Made by a program: the position numbers and the translations under genes. From the IMG/VR virus record IMGVR_UViG_3300034104_000236, positions 1-32,688 of that record: a DNA stretch of 32,688 bases; one strand, 5' to 3'. The notes beneath the pieces are model-generated. The model ran no database searches. It saw nothing but the letters and a program-made list of their open reading frames with translations, and was not told the DNA's origin. Of this stretch, positions 26,330-29,742 are shown piece by piece (position 1 is the stretch's first letter; every line of letters begins with the position of its first letter). This stretch comes from a virus.

Positions 26330-26354
26330 TGGGGGCTGATGCTCCCATTTTTTT
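26330..26354 (+). terminator. Strong intrinsic terminator between early and late genes
   Basis: TGGGGGC (26330-26336), TGAT loop, GCTCCCA (26341-26347), a 7-bp GC-rich stem with one G.T pair, then seven T. The T-run is only 9 bases before the ATG of the ParB-domain gene, with the ribosome site AAGG in between. Downstream genes therefore need read-through, antitermination or another promoter. Confidence 0.85.
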
Positions 26355-26363
26355 AAGGAAAAT

Positions 26364-27161
26364 ATGAACCCAGCAGATAAAGTCGAAAAATGGGCGATTG
26401 ATAAGCTCATTCCTTACGCACGAAACTCACGCACACATTCTGATGAGCAAGTAGCACAACTTGCCGCAAGTATTAAGGAGTGGGGCTGGACAACTCCAGT
26501 TTTGGTGGATGAACAAGGCGGCATCATTGCTGGACATGGGCGTACACTAGCGGCTCAAAAGCTGAAAATGGCAGAAGTTCCTGTGATGGTGGCAAAAGGT
26601 TGGTCAGATGCCAAAAAACGAGCTTATATCATTGCTGACAATAAACTTGCACAAAATGCTGGTTGGGACAACGCAATGTTATCCCTTGAACTTGAAGAAC
26701 TTGATGGTCTAGGTTTTGACATTGACTTAACTGGATTTACGCCAGAGGAAATTACAGAATTGTCATTTTTGGATGCTGATGATGAGCAAACTGATGATAG
26801 CAAGTACACAAAAAAGATAGATGCCCCAGTTTATGCGCCATCTGGTGACTGCCCTCCCATAAGTGAACTTTACGATAAAGTTAAATACGAACAACTTACA
26901 GCAAAAATTTACCAAGACCCTGAAATAAAGCCAGAGGTTAAAGACTTTTTATTGGCAGCGGCAGCACGACACATACGATTCGACTTTGAGCAAATTGCAG
27001 AGTTCTATGCTCATGCTGACCCAGATATACAGCAACTCATGGAAGATAGCGCATTGGTCATAATTGACTTTGACAAGGCTATTGCCAATGGATATGTAAA
27101 GCTTTCACAAGCCATCAGTGATGTTTATGCCAGCGAAAAGGGTGAAGAACATGATGCCTAA
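26364..27161 (+). CDS. ParB-domain protein with conserved extra C-terminal domain
   Basis: 265 residues. Residues ~8-100 form a ParB/Srx N-terminal domain: IPYARNSRTHSDEQVAQLAA, then GIIAGHGRTLAAQKL with G57-H58-G59-R60 (ParB box 2 type) and VPVMVAKGWSDAKKRAYIIA. Residues ~150-265 are a separate helical domain (PPISELYDKVKYEQLTAKIY, RHIRFDFEQIAEFYAHAD, DSALVIIDFDKAIANGYVKL) which I recognise as linked to a neighbouring glycosyltransferase-like gene in other mobile elements. ParB-domain phage proteins may bind or modify DNA, hydrolyse CTP or act as nucleases; which applies here is unknown. It overlaps the next gene by 11 bases. Confidence 0.85.
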   Translation: MNPADKVEKWAIDKLIPYARNSRTHSDEQVAQLAASIKEWGWTTPVLVDEQGGIIAGHGRTLAAQKLKMAEVPVMVAKGWSDAKKRAYIIADNKLAQNAGWDNAMLSLELEELDGLGFDIDLTGFTPEEITELSFLDADDEQTDDSKYTKKIDAPVYAPSGDCPPISELYDKVKYEQLTAKIYQDPEIKPEVKDFLLAAAARHIRFDFEQIAEFYAHADPDIQQLMEDSALVIIDFDKAIANGYVKLSQAISDVYASEKGEEHDA

Positions 27162-28056
27162 GACCTTTGCCGTGTTTATTCTGACGCATGGTCGAGCAAA
27201 TAATGTTTATACGTACCAAAGTTTACGTAAACAAGGTTACACAGGCAAAATTTACCTGATATGCGATGACGAGGACAAACAACTCGACAAATACAAAGAG
27301 GTTTATGGCAAAGAATCTGTGATCGTTTTCAACAAGCAAGAAGCGATTGATATTACCGACAGCGGAGATAACTTCAAAAAACGCAATAGCGTGGTCTACG
27401 CAAGAAATATCAGCTTCAAAATTGCAGCCGATCAAGGTCTGACGCACTTTTGGCAACTAGATGACGATTACACAAGGTTTGATTACTCAACGAATGAAGA
27501 ATTGCAGTACATCACATCCGAAAATAAGATTGGCAAACTGGATGATGTGCTTGTTGCACTGGTTGAGTTTTTGGATACAACACCGTTTCATTCAGTCGCA
27601 TTTGCACAGGGGGGCGACTTTATTGGTGGTGAAGGTTGCGTATTACTGAGCAAAATGCGGAAAGATGAAATTTATCGTAAAGTAATGAATTCGTTTATGT
27701 TTCGTGTAGATCGCCCTGTCAAGTTCATGGGTCGAATTAACGAGGATGTGAATATGTATGCCGAATGGGGCAGACGAGGCATATTGTTCATGACGACACC
27801 TCAGTTGCGCTTACAGCAGATCGTAACTCAGCAAAATGCAGGCGGATTGACTGAAATCTACTTAGACCTTGGAACTTATACTAAATCGTTCTATTCAGTT
27901 ATGTATGCACCATCGTGTGTAAAAATCTCAGAAGTAGGCACAAATGACAAACGGATACATCATCAGTTATCATGGAAACACACTGTGCCAAAGATATTGA
28001 GTGAGGAACATCGCAAACCAAGGGTGCTTTCACGCATTACAAGCACAGTTAAATAA
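27151..28056 (+). CDS. Glycosyltransferase-like protein linked to ParB
   Basis: 301 residues from ATG 27151 (27154 also possible). It has the look of a GT-A fold sugar transferase: MPKTFAVFILTHGRANNVYT with T12-HGR15, YLICDDEDKQLDKY (38-50), the nucleotide-binding-like ARN at 84-86 and a WQLDDDY motif at 101-107 that could hold the metal and sugar nucleotide. Later blocks: VAFAQGGDFIGGEG and FMGRINEDVNMYAEWG. TET-associated and other phage glycosyltransferases modify DNA bases, but no TET or hydroxymethylase gene is present, so the target is open. The 11-base overlap with the ParB-domain gene shows a two-gene unit. It could also act on protein or sugar. Confidence 0.75.
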   Translation: MMPKTFAVFILTHGRANNVYTYQSLRKQGYTGKIYLICDDEDKQLDKYKEVYGKESVIVFNKQEAIDITDSGDNFKKRNSVVYARNISFKIAADQGLTHFWQLDDDYTRFDYSTNEELQYITSENKIGKLDDVLVALVEFLDTTPFHSVAFAQGGDFIGGEGCVLLSKMRKDEIYRKVMNSFMFRVDRPVKFMGRINEDVNMYAEWGRRGILFMTTPQLRLQQIVTQQNAGGLTEIYLDLGTYTKSFYSVMYAPSCVKISEVGTNDKRIHHQLSWKHTVPKILSEEHRKPRVLSRITSTVK

Positions 28057-28088: not shown

Positions 28089-28523
28089 ATGAAAAAAACA
28101 ACTGAAATTTCCACCCAACTGCCTAAAAAAGAGGCAGATAAGCCAAAACAGAACGGTGGGGCACGAGAAGGTGCTGGCAGAAAACCCTTTTTGCCTACTG
28201 ATGCAGAACGCAAACAGGTTGAGGCAATGTCTGGTTATGGTGTGCCTTTTGAACAGATTGCGGCATTGATACGTGATGGCATTGACATTGATACGCTGAG
28301 AAAATACTTCAGCCCCGAACTTATCAACGGAAAAGCCAAAGCAAATGCACAGATTGGCAAAGGCATTTTCCAAAAAGCAATGGCTGGTGATACGACAGCA
28401 CAAATTTGGTGGTCAAAATGCCAAATGGGTTGGAAAGAAACCCAACGTCATGAACTAACAGGAGCTGATGGTCAACCACTAGAGTTCGCAAAGATTGAGC
28501 GTGTCGTTGTCAAACATGGGTAA
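28089..28523 (+). CDS. terS: Terminase small subunit
   Basis: 144 residues. GGAREGAGRKPFLPTDAERK is the typical start of the Phage-terminase small-subunit type, followed by MSGYGVPFEQIAALIRDGID and TLRKYFSPELINGKAKANAQ, a helix-turn-helix that recognises the packaging site, and a WWSKCQMGWKETQRHE block for oligomerisation. The start has GCGGAGGTTACTT upstream, a strong site. The end overlaps the large subunit start by 8 bases. The pac site is usually inside or near this gene. Confidence 0.9.
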   Translation: MKKTTEISTQLPKKEADKPKQNGGAREGAGRKPFLPTDAERKQVEAMSGYGVPFEQIAALIRDGIDIDTLRKYFSPELINGKAKANAQIGKGIFQKAMAGDTTAQIWWSKCQMGWKETQRHELTGADGQPLEFAKIERVVVKHG

Positions 28524-29742
28524 AACCCTGCAAATTCAAACCCCTGAGTGGGCTTTGCCTTTGTTGCAGCCCTCTCGTTACAAAGGTGCATGGGGCGGTC
28601 GAGGTTCAGGAAAGTCACATCTATTTGCTGAGATGATGATTGAGGCTCACATAATGAACCAAAAGCATCGAAGCGTTTGCGTTCGTGAAATACAAAAGTC
28701 GCTTAATCAATCAGTAAAACGCTTGCTCGAGACCAAGATTGAGGCCATGAACGCAGGGGCTTACTTTGAAGTTCAGGATTCGGTTATCAAGTCCAAAAAG
28801 GGCGATGGTGCTATTATTTTCCAAGGTATGCAGAACCACACAGCCGACAGCATTAAATCGCTTGAAGGCTATGACTGCGCTTGGGTTGAGGAAGCCCAAA
28901 GTCTGAGTCAGACCAGCCTTGATCTACTGAGACCAACAATTCGTAAACCAAATAGTGAACTGTGGTTTACATGGAATCCAAGGCAGCAATCCGACCCTGT
29001 GGATTTTTTACTGCGTGGGCCAGAGCCGCCAGCTAGTGCCTCGGTAATCAAGGTCAACTTTGGTGATAACCCGTGGTTTCCACAAGTCCTAAAAGACGAA
29101 ATGGAATACGACAAGCGCAGAGACCCTGATAAATATCAGCACGTTTGGATGGGTCAATACCTGCAAAACAGTAATAGCAGGGTATTCAGGAACTGGAAAA
29201 TTGACGACTTTGAAGCACCGCCAGATGCCATTCACCGACTTGGTGCTGATTGGGGTTTCTCGGTTGACCCGACAGTTTTGGTTCGCTGTCACATTATTGG
29301 GCGCACCCTTTACATTGATTACGAAGCCTATATGGTGGGATGTGAGATCGTTAACACGCCTGAACTATTTATGCAAGTGCCAGATGCCGAGAAATGGCCT
29401 ATCGTGGCAGACTCAGCCAGACCTGAGACTATCAGCCACATGAAGCGCAACGGTTTTCCAAAAATAATGAATGCAGTAAAAGGACCAAAATCGGTTGAGG
29501 AAGGCATTGAGTTTTTAAAGAACTACGACATCATTGTTCATCCTCGCTGTATTCACACTATTGACGAATTAAGTCTGTACAGTTATAAATCAGACCCATT
29601 GACAGGCAGAATTCTGCCAATGCTTGAGGACAAAAAGAATCACGTAATTGATGCTTTGCGATATGCGTGTGAGGGCATTAGGCGGTCAGCGGTCACAAAA
29701 TCGGCTATATTTACACCATTGCCCAATGTCAAACGCTGGTAG
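28516..29742 (+). CDS. terL: Terminase large subunit (PBSX/Terminase_3 type)
   Basis: 408 residues from ATG 28516; an in-frame TTG further left is unlikely. It packages DNA with its N-terminal ATPase and cuts it with its C-terminal nuclease. Walker A GGRGSGKS at 27-34, Walker B region YDCAWVEEA at 119-127 and the coupling motif TWNP at 152-155. The RNase H-like nuclease follows with D245 in GADWGF, D299 in ADSARPE and D379 in KNHVIDALRYA. It belongs to the PBSX-like terminases, not the P22 gp2 lineage by sequence style, so it is paired with P22-type head genes. Headful packaging is likely. Confidence 0.95.
   Translation: MGKTLQIQTPEWALPLLQPSRYKGAWGGRGSGKSHLFAEMMIEAHIMNQKHRSVCVREIQKSLNQSVKRLLETKIEAMNAGAYFEVQDSVIKSKKGDGAIIFQGMQNHTADSIKSLEGYDCAWVEEAQSLSQTSLDLLRPTIRKPNSELWFTWNPRQQSDPVDFLLRGPEPPASASVIKVNFGDNPWFPQVLKDEMEYDKRRDPDKYQHVWMGQYLQNSNSRVFRNWKIDDFEAPPDAIHRLGADWGFSVDPTVLVRCHIIGRTLYIDYEAYMVGCEIVNTPELFMQVPDAEKWPIVADSARPETISHMKRNGFPKIMNAVKGPKSVEEGIEFLKNYDIIVHPRCIHTIDELSLYSYKSDPLTGRILPMLEDKKNHVIDALRYACEGIRRSAVTKSAIFTPLPNVKRW

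Follow-up and report, generated by a model that had tools for sequence, protein, structure and literature searches.

What does a gene for a ParB-domain protein do when it overlaps a gene for a glycosyltransferase-like protein directly upstream of the terminase genes of a phage, and what would that transferase glycosylate? The pair lies in the IMG/VR virus record IMGVR_UViG_3300034104_000236, whose 32,688 nt were analysed as a whole and are called the window here. The window codes for a small tailed phage with a major head protein, head-tail connectors, an endolysin, a YqaJ exonuclease, an Erf annealing protein, a replication initiator, RusA and HNH, after which come the pair, terS, terL and the portal gene. 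A DUF932-family protein (PF06067; 22483-23451, minus strand) adjoins the Erf/YqaJ recombination genes. An initial sequence-only reading had described the pair as a two-gene unit with an 11-base overlap, set between a strong terminator and the terminase. Both open reading frames were confirmed (Table 1), with an overlap of 11 nt when ORF2 begins at ATG 27151, its best start; the mechanical ORF opens at GTG 27118. The terminase genes do follow the pair, but the hairpin in front of it is a plausible rather than a significant terminator, as the region contains four terminator-like sites against 2.8 ± 1.8 in shuffled sequences.

Table 1. Features of the ParB-PC/TAGT locus and its surroundings in the window.
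Feature	Position	Strand	Support
Terminator-like hairpin	26330..26347	+	7-bp stem then T-run, 16 nt before ORF1
ORF1, ParB/Srx-PC protein, 265 aa	26364..27161	+	PF02195; whole-length phrog_620; AF2 model; Foldseek matches to Noc, ParB and sulfiredoxin
ParB-CTPase/Srx-fold domain, ORF1 residues ~8-96	26385..26651	+	PF02195; Foldseek; GHGR conserved
ORF1 GHGR, residues 57-60	26532-26543	+	Conserved across homologues
PC domain, ORF1 residues ~163-255, helical (predicted)	26850..27128	+	No Pfam family; almost confined to this TAGT clade
ORF2, TAGT-family glycosyltransferase, 301 aa, predicted GT-A fold	27151..28056	+	PF20691, E=1e-34; phrog_842; pLDDT 91.6; GT2/GT-A structural matches
ORF2 DDD motif, residues 104-106 (WQLDDDY)	27460..27468	+	Invariant in 67 homologues
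terS, terminase small subunit	28089..28523	+	phrog_309; slot of the pair is directly upstream
terL, terminase large subunit	28516..29742	+	PF04466/PF17288; query for close relatives

Profile searches and structure prediction agree with the earlier suggestion that the partner is a GT-A-like transferase. ORF2 matches the TAGT family PF20691 along its entire length (120.8 bits against a cut-off of 27.5, positions 1-205 of 205) and so belongs to a family that already has a name. Its structure model, predicted with high confidence (pTM 0.88), matches the GT2/GT-A enzymes SunS, K4CP, GpgS and SpsA in the PDB (E about 1e-5, TM about 0.45), with SunS as the top match, and it also matches viral TAGT models; a GT-A fold is accordingly predicted. 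By analogy with GT-A enzymes in general, the DDD motif would be the expected metal/NDP-sugar site. ORF2 shares the full-length Pfam domain and the GT-A fold with the T6 beta-glucosyl-HMC-alpha-glucosyltransferase, but no alpha/beta-GT annotation is found in the window. The TAGT of T2 and T6 adds glucose to glucosylated hydroxymethylcytosine and is likewise predicted to have a GT-A fold (PMC13216743), and PMC13390438 agrees on the role of the T6-type enzyme. Searches for sequence relatives of known structure yielded no convincing match for either TAGT or the PC domain described below.

The companion protein, ORF1, has two parts. A Pfam search matches residues 8-86 to ParB_N (PF02195, E=6e-7), while phrog_620 covers nearly all of the protein. 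In Foldseek, the N-terminal part of the AF2 model (mean pLDDT 82, pTM 0.52) matches Noc, ParB and sulfiredoxin. R60 of the GHGR motif is nearly invariant in homologues and represents the conserved Box-II-type arginine. We rejected a canonical partition ParB, as TIGR00180 (ParB/RepB/Spo0J) scores 32.6 bits, below its cut-off of 58.45. The second, C-terminal domain that the sequence-only reading had noticed is indeed present as about 95 residues, conserved among homologues and matching no Pfam family. This domain, which we call PC, is predicted to be helical, with low model confidence in its last third.

The same reading had held that the C-terminal domain accompanies the transferase in other genomes, and this is so almost without exception. 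In scans that favour relatives of this clade, and in viral records that are mostly fragments, PC lies directly upstream in 150 of 166 TAGT ORFs; in 11 of the other 16 it lies one gene away, or next to a tandem TAGT of the same locus, and the remaining five sit at a contig edge, so that PC is found at every untruncated TAGT locus. A search from PC alone gives the same result, with a TAGT downstream on the same strand in 79/79 PC proteins, most of these pairs overlapping or abutting within about 13 nt. Among 50,697 phage records, 28 contain PC and all 28 of those contain TAGT. In these scans, PC was not seen beside more distant TAGTs (e.g., those of Porphyromonas phages, 25% identity). The pair is present in Haloarcula virus HHTV-2 and in Lactobacillus, Nocardia, Vibrio and E. 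coli phages, as well as in genome records of Bacteroidetes, Clostridia, Desulfovibrio, Kiritimatiellae and others, and overlapping PC and TAGT genes occur in archaeal, Gram-positive and Gram-negative phages alike. The two-gene unit is real, and its conservation is far beyond chance.

Within ORF1, the part that tracks the transferase is PC. Pairwise distances of PC and TAGT correlate more closely (r=0.69) than those of ParB and TAGT (r=0.50), and the partial correlations are 0.57 and 0.22, respectively. Vibrio phages and L143-145 encode PC without a ParB domain, and in L068-L070 the ParB part belongs to a different subfamily; the stand-alone PC proteins and the swapped ParB halves rule out ParB as an essential partner. 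Because ParB is exchangeable between enzymes and absent in some systems, the constant partner of TAGT is PC.

The position of the pair bears on the substrate. For phages with a TerL 88-96% identical to that of the window, we compared what fills the slot upstream of terS. This slot contains ParB fused to N6_N4_Mtase at 17 loci, PC with TAGT at 10 (two of which show only TAGT on a truncated contig), ParB with Mom at six, ParB with C5-MTase at five and ParB with TET/JBP at three, two of these with an extra GT-like protein. Of the other loci, six show only a methylase match and no ParB, 24 have a slot free of ParB-linked genes, and nine offer too little sequence upstream. Pfam confirms Mom (PF25680) in 6/6 loci, TET/JBP (PF12851) in 3/3, DNA_methylase (PF00145) in 3/5 and N6_N4_Mtase (PF01555) in one; the other assignments rest on sequence similarity. 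The ParB-MTase version is found at the same place in MW202867 and in Psychrobacter phage pOW20-A.

The ParB halves are close relatives across these enzyme types, with identities of up to 94% for TAGT against TET loci and up to 95% for N6A against Mom loci. The ParB domain of the window is up to 84% identical to those serving other modification enzymes, among them the ParB-N6A methyltransferase fusions (phrog_498) of the same slot. In those fusions the enzyme is the attached N6_N4_Mtase, whereas in the window ORF1 joins ParB to PC, and the enzyme is encoded by a second gene that overlaps it. On the ParB tree, many branches of which are weak, the enzyme label changes 14 times, compared with a minimum of 4 and a shuffled mean of 20, which indicates that the enzyme has been swapped repeatedly, though not at random. 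The pair of the window lies directly upstream of terS, and both its position and its ParB identity are common to N6A-MTase, Mom, C5-MTase and TET/JBP cassettes. Since this TAGT sits where relatives otherwise have DNA base modifiers with its ParB module, the swapping points to DNA as its substrate; this association is our main argument. A survey of ParB-CTPase fusions that includes phage methyltransferases suggests anti-defence roles for them and does not mention glycosyltransferases (PMC12704722).

Several occupants of the slot deserve a separate description. A Mom-family protein is paired with a ParB protein upstream of terS in L257, L264, L267, L276, L279 and L316, and in several cases this ParB partner has a Cys-rich CPxCG tail at its end instead of PC, as does the ParB beside C5-methylases, which suggests enzyme-specific tails on a common ParB. 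In L268 (1422-3028) and L277 (450-2074), the slot holds ParB, a GT-like protein (RNSALRMM, SDDF; no Pfam match) and a TET/JBP oxygenase, a candidate for a separate hydroxylation-plus-glycosylation cassette; a profile comparison showed no relation between this GT-like protein and TAGT. PAPS-reductase-like proteins lie upstream of terS in phages of the lineage without a ParB cassette (L275:3511-4302 and L254:823-1506, Pfam-confirmed for L275 only).

The genes around the pair bear on what the transferase may carry and also on whether DNA is its target. When 129 TAGTs at ≤85% identity, representing 125 distinct loci, were surveyed, an accessory donor or tailoring gene adjoined the pair in 39 loci: radical SAM in 13, cytidylyltransferase-like proteins in 11 (in some cases joined to a histidine phosphatase-like domain), UDP-galactopyranose mutase in eight (three with a sulfotransferase), SDR epimerase/dehydratase in five and class I methyltransferase in two. 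Tandem TAGTs occur at six loci. None of these accessory genes was found in the window. As judged from their families, they are compatible with an active nucleotide-sugar enzyme whose sugar would differ between phages. The mutase genes lie beside phage TAGTs in, for example, L110 (7828-8976), L136, L140, L147 and L159 (7703-8812), and galactofuranose or, where the sulfotransferase is present, a sulfated sugar is a possible donor chemistry. The radical SAM proteins, often with SPASM, adjoin the pair on either side (L031:2391-3347, L068:245-1261, L081, L194).

The glycosylation of proteins or glycolipids would also be compatible with radical SAM, SDR and UDP-galactopyranose mutase, and this weakens the case for DNA, as does the fact that the top structural match, SunS, is a peptide S-glycosyltransferase. 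The TAGT could then target the ORF1 product, a protein of the virion or some host factor, with PC as acceptor or chaperone, and such a role would fit both an invariant co-encoded partner and the radical SAM/SPASM enzymes, which often modify peptides. We nonetheless regard protein glycosylation as unlikely: the slot otherwise holds only DNA base modifiers with the same ParB domain, the invariant columns of PC include no invariant Ser, Thr, Cys or Asn acceptor site, and the characterised phage TAGT works on DNA (PMC13216743). Sugar-nucleotide genes near the pair in a share of the distinct loci could also indicate a surface-glycan enzyme, acting in serotype conversion or superinfection exclusion beside an unrelated ParB gene. 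GT-A enzymes for O-antigen modification are common in phages. However, no GtrA/GtrB-type partner recurs when the neighbouring genes are clustered into families, the linkage to PC is near-universal, the hosts include haloarchaea and Gram-positives, whose envelopes differ, and the slot is one common to DNA modifiers. An enzyme of surface glycans is therefore a very improbable explanation.

If DNA is the substrate, the question becomes which base would accept the sugar. Known TAGTs act on pyrimidines that are already hydroxymethylated or glucosylated and differ from the TAGT of the window in its obligate PC partner. The absence of genes for making such bases weakens the DNA-glycosylation reading. 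The sequence-only reading had listed no TET, hydroxymethylase or base-synthesis gene, and our searches detected no TET, hydroxymethylase or C5-methylase gene either. Tet_JBP, Thymidylat_synt-type and C5-MTase domains were not found in 24 pair-carrying records, including those of the complete phages HHTV-2 and phi jlb1, and the TET search did match where expected, in the L247 and L268 records. N6_N4_Mtase was not found in 25 TAGT-carrying records, and neither TET/JBP nor ThyA was found in NTR1; the large Vibrio phage phiKT1024 has a ThyA-family gene. For HHTV-2 and the Vibrio phages Pv27 and phiTY18, a literature search turned up no published data on restriction or on bases. We note that the annotations 'beta-glucosyl-HMC-alpha-glucosyltransferase' and 'ParB-like partition protein' have been propagated to phages without a detected hydroxymethylcytosine pathway.

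It is conceivable, but in our view improbable, that the acceptor is a 5-hydroxymethylpyrimidine supplied by a phage or host enzyme that escaped detection, with the TAGT acting like the T6 enzyme. Characterised TAGTs in the literature use such bases (PMC13216743, PMC13390438), the relatives L268 and L277 combine a different GT-like protein with TET/JBP in the slot, and the window, like most of the records, may be incomplete; against this, none of TET/JBP, ThyA-type hydroxymethylase and C5-MTase was found in the 24 records, complete phages included, and NTR1 also lacks TET/JBP and ThyA. TAGT glycosylation of phage DNA bases was also predicted for TET/JBP base-modification operons (Iyer et al. 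2013, NAR 41:7635, as cited in PMC4111573), but there the TAGT is coupled to a JBP-like hydroxylase, a gene that the pair of the window lacks. With no hydroxylation genes detected in the 24 pair-carrying records, a T-even-type hydroxymethyl route is not evident, so PC-TAGT would use an ordinary base or PC would take part in making the acceptor. Mom offers a possible functional analogue of such a route without a hydroxyl intermediate. DNA-adenine hypermodification by Mom acts directly on the unmodified base, in the same slot and with a closely related ParB protein, although the enzyme is unrelated to TAGT and moves no sugar.

Taken together, these observations make it probable that the pair encodes the two subunits of a phage DNA-glycosylation module, one that works without a separate hydroxylase. 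The TAGT would be the catalytic GT-A subunit, moving a sugar from a nucleotide-sugar donor, and the PC domain of ORF1 would be its obligate, probably physical partner, presenting or preparing the DNA acceptor. The ParB/Srx domain may be a common NTP-binding and DNA-handling module for several unrelated base-modifying enzymes in the terS slot. The product would be modified phage DNA, most likely anti-restriction in function. The proposal that the two proteins act together on DNA is thus backed by their association and by the exchange with N6A-methylase, Mom, C5-methylase and TET/JBP, but its further element, that the ParB domain chooses the DNA site, is not supported, given that ParB is exchangeable between enzymes and missing where PC stands alone. 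A more specific version, which we put forward tentatively, is that PC-TAGT glycosylates a canonical DNA base directly, without prior hydroxylation, and with a sugar that varies between phages (e.g., glucose, galactofuranose or a sulfated sugar, depending on the optional gene). It would then be one form of an interchangeable ParB-enzyme cassette, not recognised before, through which the phages of one lineage exchange methylation, Mom, TET and glycosylation for one another at the same locus.

Solitary TAGTs in 288 of 753 phage genomes were recently suggested to be potential novel transferases (PMC13216743, 2026). Our results give part of an answer, in that one TAGT clade now has a fixed partner, PC, shares its slot with known classes of DNA base modifier, comes with several kinds of donor or tailoring gene and can be put to the test in an E. 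coli model. Were the acceptor an ordinary base, DNA would here be sugar-modified by a new route, and the anti-restriction chemistry would be new as well. More generally, the exchange of enzymes in the slot offers a way to find unknown DNA-modifying enzymes, by looking beside this ParB.

In E. coli the pair is formed by ynaK and the gene of a 'GREB1-related protein', which lie in a prophage among Rac-type neighbours. Of 5426 complete E. coli genomes, 885 (about 16%) hold at least 80% of the pair. In their Rac prophage, K-12 derivatives retain only a 254-nt ynaK remnant, adjoining ydaY, as the trace of a deletion.
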